NCBI RefSeq assembly: GCF_014048465.1 | Contig: NZ_PDLY01000003.1 | Coordinates: 1-64,000 of the forward strand | Source: Bombella mellum | GTDB lineage: Bacteria > Pseudomonadota > Alphaproteobacteria > Acetobacterales > Acetobacteraceae | Reading direction: 5' to 3' | DNA: 64,000 nt | In this document: in pieces, positions 1 to 10,661 of the stretch | How the letters are laid out: each line of letters opens with the position of its first letter | Numbering within the stretch: the stretch's first letter is position 1 | Program-made: the position numbers and the translations under genes | Notes under the pieces: model-generated | What the model was told of the DNA's origin: nothing | Seen by the model: only the letters and a program-made list of their open reading frames with translations | The model's database searches: none

Positions 1-48
1 AGGCTCATAACCTGAAGGTCGTAGGTTCAAATCCTACCCCCGCATCCA
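1..48 (+). tRNA. Initiator tRNA-fMet (CAT), 3' part only
   Basis: The 5' end lies outside the window; the visible part begins at tRNA position 29. The anticodon loop CTCATAA carries the CAT anticodon, and the variable loop, T-arm (GTAGG / TTCAAAT / CCTAC) and acceptor strand CCCCGCA match bacterial initiator tRNA, including A72, which leaves position 1:72 unpaired in this family. CCA is encoded. Two differences from the E. coli initiator are visible. The first of the three anticodon-stem G-C pairs is A29-U41, followed by G30-C40 and G31-C39. The discriminator base (73) is T instead of A. Confidence 0.9.
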
Positions 49-176
49 TCCATATACTCCCCCTCAAATATAAATCAGGTCGTCAGGCTCGAGCCAGAAA
101 TAAGGCTGCGTGGCATCACTCCACATACTCTCCAACCTATGCTATCCTCCCCGCGTAGACCGATGGTGTTGAGAAT
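49..176. other. Spacer between tRNA-fMet and CRISPR array
   Basis: These 128 bases contain no credible gene. In crRNA sense this is the upstream flank of the array, so it could act as a leader or carry a promoter, but I see no clear -35/-10 pair and no long AT-rich leader of the usual kind. No second copy of the tRNA 3' end was noticed in the window, so there is no evidence for a tRNA-borne attachment site. Confidence 0.4.
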
Positions 177-1070
177 GCCGTGGTTTCCCTACCGATTTGT
201 CTATGGTAGACTCGGTCACGAACTGCCCGGATGTCAACGTTGGCCGTGGTTTCCCTACCGATTTGTCTATGGTAGCCTCCCATCAATCGCAACCACTTGG
301 ATGAAGTTGCCGTGGTTTCCCTACCGATTTGTCTATGGTAGCCTAAAAGAAGCTCAGGGTCCAACGATAAAACAGCCGTGGTTTCCCTACCGATTTGTCT
401 ATGGTAGCCTACCAATGGCTTGCTTGGGGCAACAATCTGGGCCGTGGTTTCCCTACCGATTTGTCTATGGTAGCCTGACGGCTGCGGCTGTCCGTCCACC
501 AGCTGGGCCGTGGTTTCCCTACCGATTTGTCTATGGTAGCCTACATTCTCCCACCGGATATGAACGGAACGTGCCGTGGTTTCCCTACCGATTTGTCTAT
601 GGTAGCCTCTGGCACGGCAGTTCAAGGACAACTCCCCGGCCGTGGTTTCCCTACCGATTTGTCTATGGTAGCCTCCCCTAGTGTGGAAGCACTGTGTCCA
701 TACCGCCGTGGTTTCCCTACCGATTTGTCTATGGTAGCCTGGTCTTTGTTTTTCTGGACAATGGAGAGATGCCGTGGTTTCCCTACCGATTTGTCTATGG
801 TAGCCTACCGTAGAAATGCATTCAGTTCACCCCCGAGCCGTGGTTTCCCTACCGATTTGTCTATGGTAGCCTAACGCATGGGGGCAGCCCGTCTGGACTG
901 GGGCCGTGGTTTCCCTACCGATTTGTCTATGGTAGCCTTCAACAAGTTTTCAATGTACGCAGTGCATTGCCGTGGTTTCCCTACCGATTTGTCTATGGTA
1001 GCCTCTATTGACGCATGGGAAGGTTACTGCCCAGGCCGTGGTTTCCCTACCGATTTGTCTATGGTAGCCT
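177..1070 (+). CRISPR. Type II-C CRISPR array, 14 repeats of 36 bp, 13 spacers of 30 bp
   Basis: Repeats start at 177 and then every 66 bases to 1035. Each is 36 bp, begins GCCGTGG and ends GGTAGCCT. Thirteen repeats look identical; the first (177-212) has a single change, C to A at repeat position 34. All spacers are exactly 30 bp and differ from one another. The plus strand is taken as crRNA sense for two reasons: the repeat's 3' half (ATTTGTCTATGGTA...T) resembles the Campylobacter jejuni II-C repeat, and the plus-strand anti-repeat near cas9 is complementary to this strand. The repeat end TGGTAGCCT fits an extended -10 element, so each spacer may have its own promoter. The cas genes converge on the array. 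Confidence 0.98.
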
Positions 1071-1140
1071 AGCTTGAGCGTAACGGACTGATACTGCATG
1101 ATTTTTCGCTGTTTTGCGGCCGAAAATCATAGCAGTATCA
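1071..1140. repeat. Long imperfect hairpin between the array and the cas2 stop
   Basis: Arms 1089-1108 and 1121-1140 pair over about 19 bp with one bulged base on each side and a 12-base loop. The right arm covers the cas2 stop codon (1127-1129). CTGTTTTGCG occurs in the loop (1109-1118) and again just outside the stem (1142-1151). There is no T-run typical of an intrinsic terminator. It may end the converging cas and crRNA transcripts, or be part of the site where new spacers are integrated; both are inference. Confidence 0.7.
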
Positions 1141-1456
1141 TCTGTTTTGCGCCTGCTTGTTCGGCTTTTTTTGCAAGACCAAGCATTATTTCCATCCGTC
1201 CGTATTGTTTGTCCGTGACCTGAAGTGCCCGGACACTGCCTTCTCTGGGCAGGACTGAGCGCACACGACGCACATGTTTGTCCAGACTGTCCTGACCACG
1301 TCCGACACGGACATAGACAGAATATTGTAGCATGATGAAACCATCGTCCCGTAAAAAATTGCGGAAACGGGTGGCCTGTCGACGTTGGCTTTTTGTCCGG
1401 ACAGGGAGATCGAAAAAAATCATCAGCCACAAGAATCGGGCCTCCTCCGCTTTCAT
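1127..1456 (-). CDS. cas2: CRISPR-associated endonuclease Cas2
   Basis: 109 aa, the normal Cas2 size. The N-terminal beta strand LWLMIFFDLPV carries the conserved aspartate of the ferredoxin-like fold, followed by RFRNFLRDDGFIMLQYSVYVRV, typical of type II Cas2. With Cas1 it forms the adaptation complex that inserts spacers into the array. Its start codon overlaps the cas1 stop by 4 bases (ATGA), so translation is probably coupled. It is the last gene of cas9-cas1-cas2 and ends inside the hairpin next to the array. No cas4 or csn2 is present, as expected for subtype II-C. Confidence 0.96.
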   Translation of the reverse strand: MKAEEARFLWLMIFFDLPVRTKSQRRQATRFRNFLRDDGFIMLQYSVYVRVGRGQDSLDKHVRRVRSVLPREGSVRALQVTDKQYGRMEIMLGLAKKAEQAGAKQMILL

Positions 1457-2355
1457 GGGGTTGTTCCTCCCGTCGGGAGGACGGGCAACTGGAGCAGGGC
1501 CGCACTGCTATGCTCAAGAGCCTGTACCAGACTGGTGGCAATCTTTTCTGTGGCTGTCAGAATGCTTACAGTCTCCTGACCTATCAGAGCAGACTGTGAC
1601 AGAACACCAGTCATGAAATGGCGATCTTCGAGGGTAATGTCGCCTTCGTCAGGCTCCAGCTGATGACGTGCCACCATCTGGTCCACATAGGGGCGGAAAG
1701 GTTCGATAAGGTCATCCGCAAGATTGAAAGCATTCATGCGGGACGCATGATGGAGCCCCAGTGACGGTATCAGGCCTACCGCCACGCAGGCACGGGCGAT
1801 GGCGGCACGGAGGACGGCATAGCCGTAATTCAGTAATCCATTGCGTCTGTCAGCCCTGTCAGCCCGGGTAAAATCTGGAAAAAGATGGGACCAGTAGAAA
1901 CGTGCTGCCTGTGCTTCAATATTGTCCCGGTCGCCCGATGTGACCCGTCCCGTCATGTTTTGCAGCTGTCGGGCTTTTGGACATTCACGTGCTGCCAGAA
2001 CGGCCGCCTGATTGTTTATCTTGCTGATGACGATCTGCTGCCAGAGACGTTTCTGAAGTGGCTGCGAGGCGGAAATCTGGGATTGTATGATGTCCGCCTG
2101 AGCATAATGCTGGTGAAAGGGAAGAAGAAGCCCTGCCGGGTGATGTTTGTCATCCGGCACGGTCAGGATGAGGCCGTTGGTGGCAAAAGCGGAGAGCAGG
2201 GCTCCAGAGAAGGTGGCCTGTGGCGTATCCAGTATGCAGCAGGCCACATCCTCCAGTGGCAGGGCGATGGTATCGTCGCCCTGCGTGATGACGATCTGTC
2301 GGTCCTTCAGGCTCAGTCGGGCCGGACGGGAGATGTGCACACAACGCCATGCCAT
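1453..2355 (-). CDS. cas1: CRISPR-associated endonuclease Cas1 (type II)
   Basis: 300 aa integrase of the CRISPR adaptation complex. The catalytic-domain signature is clear: NGLLNYGYAVLRAAIARA, then GLIPSLGLHHASRMNAFNLA and DDLIEPFRP, containing the conserved metal-binding Glu/His/Asp region of the Cas1 family. The N-terminal beta domain is intact. The start MAWRCVHIS lies 43 bases inside the 3' end of cas9 in another frame; this start fits the family and no later one is better, so the overlap is probably real and implies coupled translation. The 3' end overlaps cas2 by 4 bases. Confidence 0.97.
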   Translation of the reverse strand: MAWRCVHISRPARLSLKDRQIVITQGDDTIALPLEDVACCILDTPQATFSGALLSAFATNGLILTVPDDKHHPAGLLLPFHQHYAQADIIQSQISASQPLQKRLWQQIVISKINNQAAVLAARECPKARQLQNMTGRVTSGDRDNIEAQAARFYWSHLFPDFTRADRADRRNGLLNYGYAVLRAAIARACVAVGLIPSLGLHHASRMNAFNLADDLIEPFRPYVDQMVARHQLEPDEGDITLEDRHFMTGVLSQSALIGQETVSILTATEKIATSLVQALEHSSAALLQLPVLPTGGTTP

Positions 2356-5300
2356 GTTCGTGTCTCCTTCCTGACAGGTGACAGCTCTCCAAAACGGTTG
2401 ATGGCCAGTTTCTGGACGTTATCCAGTGTCTTTATGCCGATACCTCTCTGGGGTGGCTTTTTGTTGGCAGGATCGGCCAGGGCAATGGCAGCCGTGGAAC
2501 GGTCACAGCCGGCAAAGTATCCCTCGATGATGGTATCCTTTTTTGTAAGACGCACATAGCTGCGGGGATAGAGACTGAACTGGAACTGGGCTTCAGGCCC
2601 CATGACAGGCCAGTGTTCTTCTGCCTTGCCGGAGGCCATGGCCCTGTCGGGTGGAGTCGGCCAGCGGGAACGGTTCATCACCTGATGACGATAGATGGGC
2701 ACCAGATACCATCTCACTTTGCCTTTTTTCCCAGTGACCCTGAAGACGTCGACCCGTGTCATCTCGCCTCTGTCCGCCATGCCGCCCCGAACGGGAACAG
2801 CCGGTTTTTTCCTTGTGGCAAGACGGACCTTGTGGATCAGATGGCCTTCATCTGCTGTGGCGCATGGCGTTCTTGGCGGGGTGTCCGCTGGTTTGCCTGC
2901 CTCTATCCAGGTACGGAGAGAGGTGATGAGACCGGCATTCCGGTCTGGGTCCTTGATGTTGGACAGGTCAGACAGGGTCAGTTTTTCAACGGGTTTGCGT
3001 TCATAGATGACAGGTCCGGTGTCTTCATCCCGCACCTGCCGTATGGTGGCGGCGTGGCCTTCCCCACGGGCACGTTGCCGTTCGGGACGGGCCACCAGAA
3101 TGGACCCGTATTTTTCCTCCAGCTGTTCCCGGAAACCGGCCCAGGGTGGGGCAATGTCCCGCATGGGGCGGGGAAGGCCCTGCTGTTCATTTTCCTGGAA
3201 GGATTTCGTGAGTTTCTGGATTTCTGCTTCACTGATGGCGGCAACGATGGCGGCATCCAATGCATGATGGCGGTCGTCACGGAGACGCTTTCCATCGACT
3301 TTCTTGAGGGATTCAACCCCCCAGGCATGGCGCAGGGCGGCTGTCAGGGCACCGGGACGGGTGAAGACCCGCCGTTTCCCTCCTTTTTCGGCCCGTTGGC
3401 CACGGGGGTAAAGCAGGCGTGCCGCCTCGGCCATGAGGCGTGCCGCATGGCGGGTGTCGTTGAGATTGCGGGTGCGGAAACGCTCTTCTGTTTCCTTGCT
3501 GCTTTTCAGAAGGAAATTGCGTTTTTTTAGCCCCTTCAGTTGCCTGTTGGTTTCCACGGTAGCCACAAACCTGTCCCAGGCCTCCTGCCCCCGTGTGCCA
3601 TGAATCCATTCATGAGGTGTCAGCCCCTTCTTGGCCTGGTTTTCTTTCGCAAAGCAGAGGCCCTTGTTGTTGTAGCTGTCATCGCCAAAACGTGACCAGG
3701 GGAGGATATGATCGACCTGGAGGCGGTTGTCCCGTGCCATGAGCAGGTCCGGTGGAATGGATTTCCCTGAGTAGCAGCAGTGCCCTTCCTGCTCCTTCCA
3801 GAGGCGGTATCGGAGCAGAAGGTCTGAAGGAACATCATCGATTTTCAGAAGGTCACGGATTTCCTGACGTTCCCTCTCACGCTGTCTGGTCGTGGCTTCG
3901 AGATTCTTCTCAATTTCCCGTCTTTTTTCGAGGCTGTTGCCGACATCACGGGCCAGCTCGATGCAGATCGCTCCGGGCAGGCCCCAGCGGTTGCGCATGG
4001 CCCAGAGCTGTTTCATGCCCTCGCTCAGGGCCTTTCTGGCAACCGGATTGGCAATGCTGTCACGAACGTCGTCCATGAGGGTCTGGAACCTGGCTCTGGT
4101 ATCCACAGTCTCCCGGCTGCTGAGTTTTGAAGCGGCATGATCGTACCCGACCCTTTCGCAGGCCTTGTCATATGTCAGCCCCTGCTGGAGAAAAGGGATG
4201 AGAGCCCGTGCGGCCTTGTCCGAGAGAGAGGAGGCACCCCTGAATTTTGCAAAGGGGTTCCTGTCACTCAGCAGGGCCTGACTGAGCAGGGCATGGGCTT
4301 CAGCGGGCAGGCCGATCTGGCCCAGTTTCTCAATGATGGTGTCGGCCAGCTCATGAAAACTTATGATCCATGCGGCCCGGTCGAGCAGTTCAGGCTGTGG
4401 CAGAAGCTGCCGCCACAGCGTTTCCCCCAGAATCTTGCGGAATGTGGCCGTACCGGCCAGAGCTTCGCCTGTCCTGCTGGTGATGTCCTGTTTTTCCTGG
4501 TCTGGCGAGATGGTGACGAAACGCTGGTCATCACGCAGGCCGATGAGTTTCCGTACGGCGTCTCCCGTCAGCCTGCGTGTTGTCCCGGCAGTCTCGCAGG
4601 CAAGGCGCAGCTCTTCTGAAGTCAGGGGCCGCTCTGTCGGACCGTCCGTGACACGCAGGTTCACGAGCCGGCAAAGAAGGCGGAACCGTTCGAATGAGGG
4701 GGAAAAACGGGATGACCGTTTTTCATCAGGTTCAAAAGGGCAGGCAGCCACGAGCGTGCCGCTGTCCTGCATGGGACGCTGCCGGAAGGCTATGCGGGTG
4801 AAGGCCTCTTCAAGGTCGGCACTGGCGACGGAATTGCCCAGGGCATGTTGCCTGCTGAAGAGGAGCTTTGTTTCATGTTCCAGATCATCCCGGCTCATCG
4901 TACGGTCAAAGAGGCCAGCCCGGTTGCGTCGCCGCTGAACATAGGCAGGATCACGGGCAAACATCTCACCGACCGTCCGGTATCGGGCTGACCGCTCCCT
5001 GGTTGTTGCCAGGGCTGCCAGCATCTTGCTGTCGTCAGATGGAGCATTGCCGTCGACACGTTTGGCTGCTGACCTGAAGCCCCGTCGTTTGGCGATATGG
5101 GCCAGTGCCACGGCAAATTCCTGAGGCGTCAGCGGGTGGTCTAGCCCTTTTGCTCTCATCTCCCAGGGGTCAATGGCAGGCTGGCGCAGGGCGTCCGGAT
5201 GTGACGTGCCGATCAGCCCATGTTCGGCGAAAAGGCGGCGGATCTCGGCCATCCTGTTGCGACGGCGGCGAAGAATGCGGCGCAGGAGACGGTTGGTGCG

Positions 5301-5474
5301 CCTGATCTGGTTGGTGGGTGTCCTCTCCTTGTCCGTTTCGGGAACATCGAAACACCAGCTGCCAAGAGCCTTGACGGCACCGTCTGTTCCTGATCGTTCC
5401 AGCACGGCCCATCCGCATGATCCAATACCGAGATCAATGCCAAAAAGGAGTGCTTCTGAAATTTGATGGCTCAT
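2313..5474 (-). CDS. cas9: RNA-guided DNA endonuclease Cas9, compact type II-C
   Basis: 1053 aa from ATG 5474, preceded by GGGAGGAAAC nine bases upstream. An upstream in-frame start would run through the tracrRNA promoter and anti-repeat and is rejected. Visible parts: RuvC-I with FGIDLGIGSCGWAVLE (D14), arginine-rich bridge helix around residues 55-80, REC lobe, RuvC-II AICIELARD (E506), HNH domain with LQVDHILPWSRF (D588, H589) and N612, RuvC-III RHHALDAA (H736/H737, D740), and a C-terminal PAM-interacting region. All nuclease residues are present, so both strands should be cut. Length and HNH spacing are very close to Neisseria meningitidis Cas9. PAM and guide length cannot be read directly. 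First gene of cas9-cas1-cas2. Confidence 0.97.
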   Translation of the reverse strand: MSHQISEALLFGIDLGIGSCGWAVLERSGTDGAVKALGSWCFDVPETDKERTPTNQIRRTNRLLRRILRRRRNRMAEIRRLFAEHGLIGTSHPDALRQPAIDPWEMRAKGLDHPLTPQEFAVALAHIAKRRGFRSAAKRVDGNAPSDDSKMLAALATTRERSARYRTVGEMFARDPAYVQRRRNRAGLFDRTMSRDDLEHETKLLFSRQHALGNSVASADLEEAFTRIAFRQRPMQDSGTLVAACPFEPDEKRSSRFSPSFERFRLLCRLVNLRVTDGPTERPLTSEELRLACETAGTTRRLTGDAVRKLIGLRDDQRFVTISPDQEKQDITSRTGEALAGTATFRKILGETLWRQLLPQPELLDRAAWIISFHELADTIIEKLGQIGLPAEAHALLSQALLSDRNPFAKFRGASSLSDKAARALIPFLQQGLTYDKACERVGYDHAASKLSSRETVDTRARFQTLMDDVRDSIANPVARKALSEGMKQLWAMRNRWGLPGAICIELARDVGNSLEKRREIEKNLEATTRQRERERQEIRDLLKIDDVPSDLLLRYRLWKEQEGHCCYSGKSIPPDLLMARDNRLQVDHILPWSRFGDDSYNNKGLCFAKENQAKKGLTPHEWIHGTRGQEAWDRFVATVETNRQLKGLKKRNFLLKSSKETEERFRTRNLNDTRHAARLMAEAARLLYPRGQRAEKGGKRRVFTRPGALTAALRHAWGVESLKKVDGKRLRDDRHHALDAAIVAAISEAEIQKLTKSFQENEQQGLPRPMRDIAPPWAGFREQLEEKYGSILVARPERQRARGEGHAATIRQVRDEDTGPVIYERKPVEKLTLSDLSNIKDPDRNAGLITSLRTWIEAGKPADTPPRTPCATADEGHLIHKVRLATRKKPAVPVRGGMADRGEMTRVDVFRVTGKKGKVRWYLVPIYRHQVMNRSRWPTPPDRAMASGKAEEHWPVMGPEAQFQFSLYPRSYVRLTKKDTIIEGYFAGCDRSTAAIALADPANKKPPQRGIGIKTLDNVQKLAINRFGELSPVRKETRTWHGVVCTSPVRPD

Positions 5475-5496
5475 GAAATGTTTCCTCCCGTTCAGA

Positions 5497-5525
5497 TTGA
5501 CAGAATTCAGCATGTTCCGTAGGAA
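5497..5525 (+). promoter_or_regulatory. Predicted tracrRNA promoter
   Basis: A perfect -35 TTGACA (5497-5502), a 17-base spacer and TAGGAA (5520-5525) lie on the plus strand between the cas9 start and the anti-repeat. A start 6-7 bases past the -10 would fall at 5532, the first base of the anti-repeat. It is divergent from cas9. Confidence 0.65.
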
Positions 5526-5531
5526 GGGAAC

Positions 5532-5645
5532 AGACAAATCGGTTGGGAAACCACGGTAACATGGTTTTCCATGTGAAGGATTACCTCTTCCTGCGTTTTC
5601 GTGGGGAGAGGGATTCCCTTTCCTGAAGGTTTCAGGGTCTGTCTT
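5532..5645 (+). ncRNA. tracrRNA of the type II-C system
   Basis: Bases 5532-5556 are an anti-repeat complementary to repeat positions 2-26 with one mismatch (at repeat position 14). Three hairpins follow: ACATGG-TTTT-CCATGT (5559-5574), a 12-bp stem with a TTTT loop (5584-5595 with 5600-5611, including G-U pairs), and CCTGAA-GGT-TTCAGG (5622-5636). This order, anti-repeat at the 5' end and hairpins behind it, is that of known II-C tracrRNAs. The 3' end is uncertain because no long T-run is seen; TCTGTCTT follows the third hairpin. The RNA would pair with pre-crRNA for RNase III processing and load into Cas9. Confidence 0.88.
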
Positions 5646-5666
5646 CCGTTGAAAATTGAGGTCTGG

Positions 5667-6614
5667 TCAGGGAGTGGCCCGGTAGATAATGAGGCCCCGT
5701 CTCTGCCTGACATAGTCATCCAGTGGACTGTCCACGACGTAACGATGTTCCGGCAGGGAGGAGGCGTTGCGGAAGTACAGACCGTGATTCTGCCATATGG
5801 CCAGCCCTATGTGGAATACATCCAGTCCCGGAAGAGGGCTGTAAATGCCGATCACGTCACCATTCCTGATGCGCCCGTGAATCCCGCCTGCTTTCAGGTC
5901 ATTCAGGAATGGCTGTGTTGGCAGGTAGGTGATGAGACGCTTCCTCAGGGGAAGGTCGGGCAGGTAACGGTCGGTTCCCGTGGGAGGCGTCCGGGCTTCG
6001 TGGGCCGTGGCCTGCGGGCGTTCGGGTGAGGCAGGCCCGTTCTGGTCACTGGAAGGCAGCTTCAGGTTCAGCGTCTTCTCCACATGTCTGGCATAGGGAA
6101 AATCCGGACTCAGATCATGGCAGAGAACGGGTGTTCCGTGCAGCCAGTCGCTCAGGAAATGGCGTCTTTCCCTAAAGGTGACGTGGTGATGGCTGTAGCG
6201 TGTGGCGATCAGGGCGTGGATGAACTGTTCCACGTCCTGGCTCAGGCTGGCGGCCAGAACGATCTCCACGAAGGTCATGCAGTTGACGCCCCGCCATGAG
6301 AGGACGAGTTCTTCCGGCACCGTGGCGGAGCCGATGAGGGGCTGGGCCAGATAGGGCGTGCCCTTCATGGCCTGTGAGATCAGGACGATGCGTTCCTGCC
6401 GGGACCTGTGGGGAGCGATCGAGACAAGATGACTGATCTGCTGGCGGGTCGAGGCTGACAGGGTGGCGAGAGCTGGTGCATCGGATGGAAGAGCGGCAGC
6501 AGTCCGTCGTCCGTTCCGTACGGGATGATGCCCGGTGCTGCCCGCCAGAGAAGGATCACAGAAAATCAGGCCTCCCGCACCAAGGCTGGTGAGGAAGGCC
6601 CGTCTCTTCAGCAT
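5667..6614 (-). CDS. DUF1460 family protein, predicted exported
   Basis: 315 aa from ATG 6614. The N-terminus MLKRRAFLTSLGAGGLIF has a twin-arginine-like RR-x-F-L motif and hydrophobic stretch, suggesting export. The core matches DUF1460 (N-acetylmuramoyl-L-alanine amidase-like, NlpC/P60-related fold): WRGVNCMTFVEIVLAA carries the likely catalytic Cys, and the C-terminal DVFHIGLAIW carries a likely catalytic His. A cell-envelope hydrolase role follows from the family only. A TTG start at 6641 would overlap the stop of the upstream phosphodiesterase gene and add nine residues before the RR motif. The gene lies 19 bases downstream of that gene and is probably co-transcribed; its 3' end converges on the tracrRNA. 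Confidence 0.75.
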   Translation of the reverse strand: MLKRRAFLTSLGAGGLIFCDPSLAGSTGHHPVRNGRRTAAALPSDAPALATLSASTRQQISHLVSIAPHRSRQERIVLISQAMKGTPYLAQPLIGSATVPEELVLSWRGVNCMTFVEIVLAASLSQDVEQFIHALIATRYSHHHVTFRERRHFLSDWLHGTPVLCHDLSPDFPYARHVEKTLNLKLPSSDQNGPASPERPQATAHEARTPPTGTDRYLPDLPLRKRLITYLPTQPFLNDLKAGGIHGRIRNGDVIGIYSPLPGLDVFHIGLAIWQNHGLYFRNASSLPEHRYVVDSPLDDYVRQRRGLIIYRATP

Positions 6615-6633
6615 GGGTACACAACGGCCTCTG

Positions 6634-7653
6634 TCAGACAAGGTAGCGTGCGCTCTGCTCTGCCATCATGAAGTGGATGCCGATGTCATTGCCATCCTGA
6701 AGTTCCCGGTAGATATGCTGGACCGGATGGCCGCCTTCATGGAAGGTTTCCTTCACATGGCTGACCAGCACTCTCAGGCCACGGATGTGGTGACGACCGC
6801 CACAGACATGGCCGAGATCACGCAGGCTCGCCAGAAGGTCCTTGGGGCGGAGCTGGCCGCACAGGGCCTCCTCCGGTTGTCCGTCAGGATAGGTGACCCC
6901 CATGATGATGGCGTGCAGCTTCTTCTCCCGGACCAGAGGGGCGACGGCCTTCCAGAGTTCATGGAGATTCTGTGGGCCGTCCGGCCTGTCAGCCTGGGTG
7001 TCTCCCAGATAGAGGATGGCCTGGCCATGATGCTGGATCAGGAAGGCGGTGGATGTCGTGCTGGCATGGGTGAGCGGCCAGGCGGTCACGTCCAGCCTGC
7101 TGTTCCCGATGGTCTGGCTCTGGCCCGGCTTCATGTCCCGGTAGGTGTACCTGCCTGTCCGGGGCTCCGGTCCTTTGTCGCCCATGACGCCCCAGACACG
7201 GCCATTGAAAAGATGCTCGGCCAGAATAGCGTTGGTCTGCGGCAGGGCATGGATGGGTTTCGGCGTGTCCTCCGGGGAGGACAGGACCAGCCCTGCCACA
7301 TGGTCGAGATGGGCATGGCTGATCAGATAGGCCCTGACAGTCTGCTTGAGGACATGTCCGGCCCGGCCCAGAGCGGAATCCGGCATGATGGGGATGTCGT
7401 CCAGGATACCCCGGGCCTCGGCCCGCTTCAGTCCATGCCCCAGCGTACCAGCATCACAGATGACAGCCTCGTTCGTGCCCAGGGGGCGCACCAGATAGGA
7501 GGACAGGTTGCCGTCGGCCACGCCACTCCGTACCCCAAGGGCCACGATCTCGAAGACGGGATGGCTGTCGGCAAAGGTGACGGGCGTCCCGGCCGATCCT
7601 GCCCGTGTCTTTCTCAGCCGGTCACGGAGCGTTTTCAGGTGATCTAGGGGCAT
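6634..7653 (-). CDS. Class II 3',5'-cyclic-nucleotide phosphodiesterase (metallo-beta-lactamase fold)
   Basis: 339 aa. The metal-binding motif HAHLDHVAGLVLSSPED is the class II phosphodiesterase variant of the metallo-beta-lactamase HxHxDH signature. NLSSYLVRP with the following ICDAGT and the later YLGDTQ and VSHVKE are further family positions. The protein probably hydrolyses cAMP or cGMP. No signal peptide is obvious, so it is likely cytoplasmic, although some relatives are exported. It is first of a two-gene minus-strand unit with the DUF1460 gene and diverges from the DUF3465 gene. Confidence 0.8.
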   Translation of the reverse strand: MPLDHLKTLRDRLRKTRAGSAGTPVTFADSHPVFEIVALGVRSGVADGNLSSYLVRPLGTNEAVICDAGTLGHGLKRAEARGILDDIPIMPDSALGRAGHVLKQTVRAYLISHAHLDHVAGLVLSSPEDTPKPIHALPQTNAILAEHLFNGRVWGVMGDKGPEPRTGRYTYRDMKPGQSQTIGNSRLDVTAWPLTHASTTSTAFLIQHHGQAILYLGDTQADRPDGPQNLHELWKAVAPLVREKKLHAIIMGVTYPDGQPEEALCGQLRPKDLLASLRDLGHVCGGRHHIRGLRVLVSHVKETFHEGGHPVQHIYRELQDGNDIGIHFMMAEQSARYLV

Positions 7654-7805
7654 GGTCTTGTCCTCCCTGACAGCAAGACGGGTGATGGGAGCATCCGGCT
7701 GCGAATGTGGTTGAGCCGTTACGGGTTCATCCAGTAATGATGAAGCCTGTCGAGGATACTCCCGCCTCGCCCACGGGGAAAGGGGGAAGAGGAGAAGGAG
7801 ATGCC

Positions 7806-8300
7806 ATGCGGTTCATTCATGCGGCCCTGAGACGGGCCGGGATTCTTGCGGTGCTTGTGAGCGGTGTTGCCTGCGTGCAGGCCCGTGCGGAGGCGACCAT
7901 GCCGGCACAGTGCGACAATGCCCGGTTCGTGCAGGATCAGGCGGCCTATGCCCGGCAGTTTGCGCACACGAACGTGCCTTATGGCCAGCATCTCGACCTG
8001 CCGGAGCATGTCTGCGGCACCGTCGTGCGGACATACCGGGCACGCCGCAGCCGGAGCGGGATGCACGGCTATTTCCTGATGGCCGTCGAAGGGGGGAAGC
8101 CCATCAGGGTCGTCTCCAACCTTGATGAGATGAAGGCCCCGTCCTGGCCGTGGGTGAAGGCCGGGGACCAGGTTGAGGTGCAGGGGCGGTATTATTTCGA
8201 CGGTCCCGGCCGGGAAGGGCTGGACTGGACCCACCACGGCACGAGCCGCAGGTGGCCGTGGGCGGGCTATGTCAGCGTGAACGGCCAGCATTACGAGTGA
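7806..8300 (+). CDS. DUF3465 family exported protein
   Basis: 164 aa from ATG 7806, preceded by AAGGAG six bases upstream. The N-terminus (RRAGILAVLVSGVACVQARAEA) is a signal peptide ending near residue 25. The remainder resembles DUF3465, whose C-terminal DWTHHGTSRRWPWAGYVSVNGQHYE is typical. In the family this is an OB-like small domain of unknown function; VVRTYRARRSRSGMHGYFLMAVEGGKPIRVV would fit OB-fold strands. It is monocistronic here, divergent from the phosphodiesterase and convergent with clpA (30-base gap). Confidence 0.7.
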   Translation: MRFIHAALRRAGILAVLVSGVACVQARAEATMPAQCDNARFVQDQAAYARQFAHTNVPYGQHLDLPEHVCGTVVRTYRARRSRSGMHGYFLMAVEGGKPIRVVSNLDEMKAPSWPWVKAGDQVEVQGRYYFDGPGREGLDWTHHGTSRRWPWAGYVSVNGQHYE

Positions 8301-8330: not shown

Positions 8331-10661
8331 TCAGGCCGGAGCGAGCGTTCTTACGGGGCGGCGGCCCTTCCTGTCCGTGGGGGCCTGTGCCGTGGAGGAG
8401 ATGGCGAAGGTCAGCTGGCCGTCCCGTGCCCCGATCCTGACCGTTCCGCCTTCCGTCAGCCTGCCGAAAAGAATTTCTTCCGCCAGCGGTTTCTTGATGT
8501 GGTTCTGTATCAGGCGGCCCAGCGGGCGGGCACCATGGGTGCGGTCATAGCCATGCTCGGCCAGCCAGGCCCTGGCGGCTGCCGTGAGATGCAGGGAGAC
8601 ATTCTTGGCGGCCAGCATGGCGGTCAGCTGCTGGATGAACTTGTCCACCACGTGAGTGACGACGGCAGGCGTGAGCGGGGCGAAGGGGATGATGGCATCC
8701 AGCCTGTTGCGGAATTCCGGCGAGAAGAGCCTTTTTATGGCTTCCTCATCGTCCCCTGACCGTGCCGTGCGGGCAAAGCCGATGACCTCCTTGGAGAGGT
8801 CGGCAGCACCGGCATTGCTGGTCATGATGAGGATGACGTTGCGGAAATCCACTGTCTTGCCGGTGTTGTCCGTCAGCTTGCCGTGATCCATCACCTGAAG
8901 CAGGATGTTGAAGAGATCGAGATGGGCCTTCTCGATCTCGTCCAGCAGCAGGACGGCATGGGGGGTCTGGTCTATGGCACTGGTCAGCAGGCCGCCCTGC
9001 TCGAAGCCGACATAGCCGGGCGGCGTGCCGATCAGCCGGGATATGGAATGGGCTTCCATATATTCGGACATGTCGAAGCGTATGAGCTTTATGTCCAGCG
9101 ACCGGGCAAGCTGGCGGGCGGCTTCCGTCTTGCCGACGCCCGTCGGGCCGGAGAAGAGATAGCTGCCGATGGTTTTCTCGGCATCACGAAGTCCGGCCCG
9201 GGAGAGCATGACGGCGGAGGACAGGGCATCCAGAGCCGCATCCTGCCCGAAGACGGCCCTGCGGAGGTCCGAGGGCAGGTGACGGATGGCCGCACGGTCA
9301 TCGGTGGATAGGTGGCGGGGCGGGATGTGGGCGATGCGGGACACCGTGGCCTCGATGTCCTTCACGCCCACCGTACGTCGGCGGCGGCTGCTGGGGAGCA
9401 GGCGGCAGGCCGCTCCGGCCTCGTCAATCACGTCGATGGCCTTGTCCGGCAGCTTGCGGTCGTGGATGTAGCGGGCGGAGAGTTCCACGGCACTGCGGAT
9501 GGCCGGGTCGGTGAAGCGGATGTCGTGATGTTCCTCGTACCGTTCCTTCAGGCCCCGCAGGATGCGGATGGTGTCAGCCTGTGATGGCTCCTCGACGTCG
9601 ATCTTCTGGAACCGCCGTGTCAGGGCGTGGTCCTTCTCGAAATGCTTCCGGTATTCCTGATAGGTGGTGGAGCCGATGCAGTGCAGCTTGCCCGTGGCCA
9701 GGGCAGGCTTGAGCAGGTTGGACGCATCCATGGAGCCGTTGGTGGTGGCCCCCGCCCCGATGAGCATGTGGATTTCGTCAATGAAGAGCAGGCTGCCGGG
9801 ATTCTGCTCCAGCTCATTCATGATGGACTTGAGCCGTTCTTCGAAGTCTCCACGGTAACGGGTACCGGCCAGAAGGGCCCCGAGGTCCAGACTGTAGAGG
9901 CGGGCACCGGCGAGGATGTCGGGGACCTGTCCCTGCACGATTCTCTGGGCAAGCCCCTCGGCGATGGCCGTCTTGCCGACACCGGGGTCTCCGACCAGCA
10001 GGGGATTGTTCTTGGTGCGGCGGCAGAGGATCTGGATGACCCGTTCCACTTCCTTTTCCCGGCCGATGAGCGGGTCGATCCGGTTGAGATGGGCACGCTC
10101 GCTGAGGTTCGTGCAGTAGGTCTGGAGGGCGTCCCTGCTGTCGGCCTCGGCAGTGTCCGGGCTGTCCGCATGTTCCTTGCGGCTGTTCTTCGTTTTCCTG
10201 CCGCCGCGGTGCTCACGCTGCGGTCCGGCCGCCACGTCATCATGCTGCATGGCATGGATGGCATTGAGCCGCGTCAGGCCCCGCTGCTGGAGGAAGAAGA
10301 CGGCATGGCTCTCCTTCTCGGCGAACATGGAGACCAGAACATGGGCACCGGTCATGATGGACTGGCCCGCACTCTGGATGTGAACGGCCGCCCGCTGTAT
10401 GACCCGCTGGAAGGCTGCCGTCGGCTGGGGGGCGTCCTCCAGTTCGGGGCGGATGATGGCCTTCTGCTCGTGGGAAAGGAAGTGGTCGACATCCTGCCGC
10501 AGCTGTTCCAGATCAGTCTGGCATGCCGTGAAAATGGTCATGGCGTCACGGTCGTCACACAGGGCGAACAGGAGGTGCTCCAGTGTGATGAATTCGTGAT
10601 GATTCTGACCGGCAAGGATAAGCGCACGCTGGAGCGTCTGTTCAAGTGTGGAGGACAACAT
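8331..10661 (-). CDS. clpA: ATP-dependent Clp protease ATP-binding subunit ClpA
   Basis: 776 aa AAA+ unfoldase that feeds substrates to ClpP. Domains: N-terminal Clp_N double repeat (1-145), which binds ClpS; D1 with Walker A GDPGVGKT (224-231) and Walker [12 protein letters not shown]2 with Walker A GPTGVGKT (505-512) and [10 protein letters not shown]; then VIGFARTAR, the ClpP-docking IGF loop. The linker at 146-175 is charged and variable. The ClpB-type long middle coiled coil is absent, which separates it from ClpB. It lies downstream of clpS on the same strand with an 84-base gap, the classical clpS-clpA arrangement. No clpP is in the window. Confidence 0.96.

Follow-up and report, generated by a model that had tools for sequence, protein, structure and literature searches.

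The analyzed window is a 64-kb stretch of DNA at the start of contig C5 in a genome of 2.07 Mb, and it contains a complete type II-C CRISPR-Cas9 locus of a Bombella-like acetic acid bacterium. From left to right, the window includes a cut tRNA, a CRISPR array (177–1070, crRNA sense on the plus strand), cas2, cas1, and cas9 on the minus strand, and a divergent tracrRNA. Type II-C systems are defined by cas9, cas1, and cas2 without csn2 or cas4, and this set of three genes was recognized in the window with NCBIfam and Pfam profiles. The cas2 gene (1127–1456) encodes a protein of 109 aa (TIGR01573, PF09827). The cas1 gene (1453–2355) encodes a protein of 300 aa, matches the type II Cas1 profile TIGR03639 with 291 bits, and overlaps the ends of both cas9 and cas2. 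All three cas ORFs are open, and the flanking ORFs at 5667–6641 and 6634–7653 showed no match to a cas family in NCBIfam. A second rRNA-operon end of the same genome (L021, G000:C4:388396-390284) has the same tRNA stretch and a flank near-identical to positions 1–212 of the window. It bears a lone CRISPR repeat without spacers (gene names assigned by eye). The window array appears to be located at one of the copies of a duplicated rrn flank.

The cas9 gene (2313–5474, minus strand) starts with the ATG at 5474, which is directly preceded by GGAGGAAA, and encodes a protein of 1053 aa. The protein matches the Cas9 profile TIGR01865 (NCBIfam) with 566.7 bits against a cut-off of 100, and includes the Pfam domains HNH_4 and RuvC_III. 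The residues D14 (RuvC-I), E506 (RuvC-II), H589 (HNH), and H736-H737/D740 (RuvC-III) are kept in 14 of 14 aligned sequences, in agreement with the first-pass annotation, which had described a Cas9 of this length with intact RuvC and HNH residues. Its description as probably uncharacterized is also supported; no characterized close homolog was found. Among solved structures, the top matches belong to the Nme1Cas9 type (6jdq, e-value 3.7e-126; best phmmer score 426 bits), and the closest genomic relatives, from Bombella favorum and B. intestini, are 76% identical. Cas9 proteins with 67–70% identity are encoded by B. saccharophila, Saccharibacter sp. 17.LH.SD, and genome G398. In the phmmer alignment, Asp991 (codon at 2502–2504, minus strand) aligns with H1024 of Nme1Cas9, a contact for PAM base 5. 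An AlphaFold model based on a 5-sequence alignment was discarded (mean pLDDT 39.8, pTM 0.25).

On the opposite strand from cas9, an anti-repeat (5532–5556) pairs with the repeat over 25 nt, with 24 of 25 positions complementary and a single U-U mismatch. Outside the array, nothing in the 64-kb window matches the reverse-complemented repeat better (26/36; runner-up 21). The complementarity noted at first pass is confirmed. The promoter proposed there, TTGACA (5497–5502), N17, and TAGGAA (5520–5525), is literally present, and its two halves fared differently. The −10 hexamer TAGGAA is poor, and a consensus promoter scan of positions 5200–5900 detected none. TTGACN is found 28–31 nt upstream of the anti-repeat in all 20 aligned loci, in 17 of them as TTGACA. 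Because this position is conserved while the intervening bases are variable, the tracrRNA promoter is accepted despite the poor −10 box and the empty scan. The alignment was derived from tracrRNA candidates in 22 of the 27 named loci examined, leaving out G245, a near copy of G276, and G149, which is divergent and has no TTGAC there.

Folding of the window sequence predicts three hairpins (z −3.5), the number given by the first-pass annotation; the first two are conserved and covarying across the 20 aligned loci. Hairpin 1 (5559–5574) shows two-sided changes in 5 of 6 pairs, with 73% of cells paired. Hairpin 2 (5578–5617), with GGA/TCC closing pairs, has such changes in 10 of 11 pairs, and in its long helix 96% of cells are paired; on the aligned sequences it is the better supported of the two, and together with the T-rich tail that follows, it probably constitutes the terminator. 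Across the whole tracrRNA structure, two-sided changes are observed in 15 of 20 pairs. The proportion of paired cells (89.4%) exceeds those of both shuffles (69.2%) and slid versions (40–59%); the structure was drawn from the alignment and the window fold, so it should to some extent surpass the slid versions in any case. The third hairpin (5621–5637) has −6.5 kcal/mol in the window; for B. favorum, B. intestini, and B. saccharophila, values at the same place are between −0.5 and −1.3. Other, unrelated hairpins occupy this place in a few distant loci (Tistrella −8.7, G276 −7.0, G394 −7.5, G102 −10.4). By this sequence comparison, the third hairpin does not belong to the shared tracrRNA, which is defined by two hairpins, and it may be a back-up terminator. 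An Rfam search of positions 1–8000 found no tracrRNA family and only the cut tRNA. The overall picture, a compact and intact II-C Cas9 whose guide-RNA architecture is complete, is supported.

The array consists of 14 repeats of 36 nt and 13 spacers of exactly 30 nt. The repeats are identical except for one base in the terminal first repeat (177–212); their 3′ ends are TGGTAGCCT, and that of the terminal repeat is TGGTAGACT. The crRNA strand is opposite to the cas genes and carries this variant terminal repeat, an arrangement that was compared with the Neisseria-type layout. Because the terminal repeat differs by one base, the leader would lie at the other end, the 3′ end of the crRNA strand, with its side at 1071, adjoining cas2. 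In the parts of PMC7038990 covered here, an extended −10 in the repeats starts crRNA transcription in Neisseria and is noted in Clostridium cellulolyticum. By analogy, the extended −10 TGGTAGCCT at each repeat end is probably a crRNA promoter, and 30-nt spacers read from an in-repeat promoter would give guides of ~24 nt.

The crRNAs could instead come mainly from one long transcript processed by RNase III, and the −10-like repeat end TAGCCT is indeed a weak match, while the repeat ends may be conserved for the insertion of spacers by Cas1-Cas2. This origin appears less likely, however, since TGNTA(G/A)NNT ends most related repeats (the exceptions being one mini-array of strain 17.LH.SD and the lone repeat of B. 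saccharophila), as in the C. cellulolyticum and Neisseria repeats of PMC7038990, and since the leader would be at the 3′ end of the crRNA strand.

Three spacers of the window array match prophage-like DNA of Bombella genomes, and C is found at position 5 of the 3′ flank in all of them. W11 matches a capsid-like gene in G010 exactly (flank TTAGCCAG), W03 matches a repressor-like gene in G004 with 2 mismatches (flank CGAGCAAG), and W06 matches DNA beside tail-like genes in G007 with 4 mismatches (flank TCCTCCAG); these gene names were read from translations by eye. For W06, two sites were tied at 4 mismatches (TCCTCCAG and TCTTCCAG), and one was counted. A 44.7-kb IMG/VR prophage includes sites for W03, W06, and W11 (2, 6, and 2 mismatches; L147, L187, and L188), again with C. 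The copies of the W11 target in other phages represent one conserved gene and hence are non-independent. The window's own genome carries a prophage-like capsid gene (L256, G000:C1:65500-68000) in which W11 matches at 5 mismatches, again followed by C at position 5.

The matches of W05 (C at position 5) and W07 (4 mismatches, G at position 5) are in other genera and may be due to chance. A pattern scan with W05 is uninformative on the PAM because the pattern required C at position 5, and its two matches were dropped, with 10 and 12 mismatches. Sites in viral contigs found through 18-mer ends of W13 and W09 were dropped as chance, with 8–10 mismatches over the full spacer, and no exact 18-mer ends of W12 and W02 were found in viral contigs. 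The window array gave one weak match and no protospacer among phage records, and the Tistrella array, one weak match, and no protospacer among plasmid records.

The N4C hypothesis was set from these window flanks before a residue rule for Nme1Cas9 orthologs was brought in. According to the parts of PMC9433092 covered, Asp at the position of Nme1Cas9 H1024 corresponds to C at PAM position 5, and His or Asn to a purine. The window Cas9 has Asp991 at this position, the residue of the N4C (Nme2Cas9-like) group. Asn is found in B. favorum, B. intestini, and B. saccharophila, and His in G276 and G023. Because position-5 C was proposed from the window's own flanks, only the contrast with relatives is a fresh test. 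When the rule came in, the known flanks of relatives were A for B. intestini I3 (exact match) and I2 (5 mismatches), and T for B. favorum F2. All 6 cases found later at ≤4 mismatches agreed with the rule, which comes from a different Cas9 clade: G for I1 of B. intestini (Asn), G for each of three G276 spacers (His), all within GCAA, and A for both of two G023 spacers (His).

The PAM comparison used one flank per spacer and a cut of ≤4 mismatches that was set after seeing the matches. C is at position 5 for 4/5 spacers with Asp versus 0/8 with His or Asn (Fisher p 0.007), and 7 of these 8 have a purine. The p value is 0.006 without W05 and W07, and 0.018 when self-matches are also removed; position-5 C was the best of 56 position-base tests each time, and these p values are uncorrected for the 56 tests. 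Matches with ≥5 mismatches were omitted, namely I2 (A), G023_7 (T), the own-genome W11 site (C), and a 6-mismatch G024_4 match. Among the 5-mismatch cases, I2 fits the rule and G023_7 does not. F2 of B. favorum, with Asn and an exact match in its own chromosome, has T and runs counter to the rule. F2 and two of the G023 spacers match their own genomes, a situation that does not require a functional PAM.

These comparisons predict, from a small sample, NNNNC as the PAM of the window Cas9, perhaps NNNNC(C/A)AG. The same II-C system could read a PAM other than N4C(M)AG, longer or different, with position-5 C a coincidence of three phage sequences; the good spacers number only three, W07 misfits, and so do F2 and the 5-mismatch G023_7. 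Against the best position of 56 tests and a rule from another clade that held in every later case at ≤4 mismatches, such a coincidence is improbable, with something like one chance in a few.

No usable protospacer was obtained for the arrays of G079 and G144. The arrays of G276 and B. favorum showed only weak matches to plasmids besides the Tistrella array, that of B. intestini showed weak matches to phages, and that of G023 no match to phages. Spacers of B. intestini match plasmid-mobilization-like DNA (L107, G010:C16; judged from ORFs by eye) and a conjugation-gene region on a plasmid of Gluconacetobacter diazotrophicus (L200), not phages. A 37-nt spacer of B. favorum (L014 array; its neighbors are 30 nt) matches its own chromosome exactly (L085), with the flank GAGTTGGT, and is possibly tolerated because this flank fits neither of the predicted PAMs.

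Across the family, Cas9 matches at E ≤ 1e-100 were found in 28 of 397 genomes, including the present one. Within the genus, Cas9 is present in 6 of 11 genomes, likewise counting the present one. Interrupted cas9 genes, with a stop or frame break, were observed in L005 and L018 (Parasaccharibacter apium) and in L006/L011 (G009); a tracrRNA-like stretch is retained, with a single repeat as the only one seen next to cas9. In Saccharibacter sp. 17.LH.SD (L017), two-repeat mini-arrays at 4410–4511 (plus strand) and 9396–9498 (minus strand) flank cas9, in contrast to the statement in PMC12282179, as far as covered, that this strain has no array. Decay of the window system to an inactive state is very unlikely, although two of the six genus genomes having cas9 carry a broken copy (G005 and G009) and the window's own genome retains the capsid gene in which W11 matches at 5 mismatches next to a position-5 C. 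None of the three cas ORFs is interrupted, a single base in the terminal repeat is the only difference among the 14 repeats, and spacers match phage regions.

Among the known systems closest to this one are those of Bombella apis and its relatives. The covered parts of PMC12282179 report both I-E and II-C systems from 16 Bombella genomes; a tracrRNA appears in the scheme, and spacers are found to match Bombella prophages. The genus, a II-C locus with tracrRNA and array, and prophage-matching spacers are shared with the window. The supposition that the locus was unreported is not supported; Bombella II-C systems with tracrRNA are already published there, without a PAM. The word PAM is absent from the main text, and the parts covered include no comparison of the tracrRNA promoter or hairpins, unlike the present analysis. 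The literature search, within main texts outside subscription papers and supplements, found no PAM or biochemistry study of a Bombella Cas9. II-C systems are also mentioned for Acetobacter, in the part of PMC11270541 covered, with short motifs only. In a catalog of 79 orthologs (PMC7606464), the main text includes no Acetobact-, Tistrella, or Gluconobacter.

The Cas9 of the Tistrella mobilis plasmid pTM3 is 58% identical to the window Cas9 and shares the repeat family, the tracrRNA architecture, and Asp at the key position, whereas its locus is plasmid-borne. Papers matching Tistrella mobilis and Cas9 were on other subjects by title and abstract. Among characterized Cas9s, GeoCas9 has the PAM N4CRAA and ThermoCas9 has N4CNR. 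Nme1Cas9 and its orthologs (PDB 6jdv; PMC9433092, in part) are compact II-C Cas9s in which base 5 is linked to the residue at the H1024 position, as in the window, but the sequences are distant (426 bits) and the bases predicted at PAM positions 6–8 differ from N4GATT and N4CC. The small II-C CcCas9 of C. cellulolyticum has a similar extended −10-like repeat end, while its PAM, N4GNA, is unlike the prediction (PMC7038990, parts covered). N4C is a known PAM group in the covered text of PMC9433092, and the predicted NNNNC falls inside it. The suggestion that this Cas9 could carry a new PAM thus gains only partial support.

It is likely (probability roughly 0.85) that the locus is a complete type II-C CRISPR-Cas9 defense system of a Bombella-like bacterium working as follows. 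The cas9-cas1-cas2 genes would be transcribed leftward, and the tracrRNA divergently from the TTGACA promoter, starting at or near the anti-repeat. The crRNAs would be read rightward, probably from the extended −10 closing every repeat, and would pair with the tracrRNA over 25 nt, the tracrRNA hairpins being bound by Cas9. The complex would cut phage DNA in which the protospacer is followed on the 3′ side by NNNNC, probably NNNNC(C/A)AG, the C being read by Asp991.

The system is likely a well-preserved one of a known kind, to which the sequences add a PAM prediction supported in two ways and a likely PAM switch among close relatives. The window has Asp with C, and relatives with Asn or His have a purine for 7 of 8 spacers; different PAMs are therefore probably read by close relatives whose guide RNAs differ little. 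In its full form, the switch would lie within one bee-symbiont genus, among Cas9s ~76% identical with near-interchangeable guide RNAs (same repeat core and tracrRNA plan), and would change position 5 between C (Asp; window) and a purine (Asn; B. favorum and B. intestini), while a related genus would show GCAA (His) as a third state; this reading has slightly better than even odds. If true, it would offer a natural set of Cas9s in which to follow PAM turnover by a single residue, and the D/H/N rule would then reach into the Acetobacteraceae. The compact Cas9, its readable dual guide RNA, and the PAM prediction are a starting point for a tool and for bee-symbiont genetics. The comparison suggests that the one-residue PAM rule of Nme1Cas9 orthologs may also apply to a distantly related clade of Cas9s, in which case the base at PAM position 5 could be deduced from sequence. 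It further suggests that a PAM can change with little alteration of the guide RNA.
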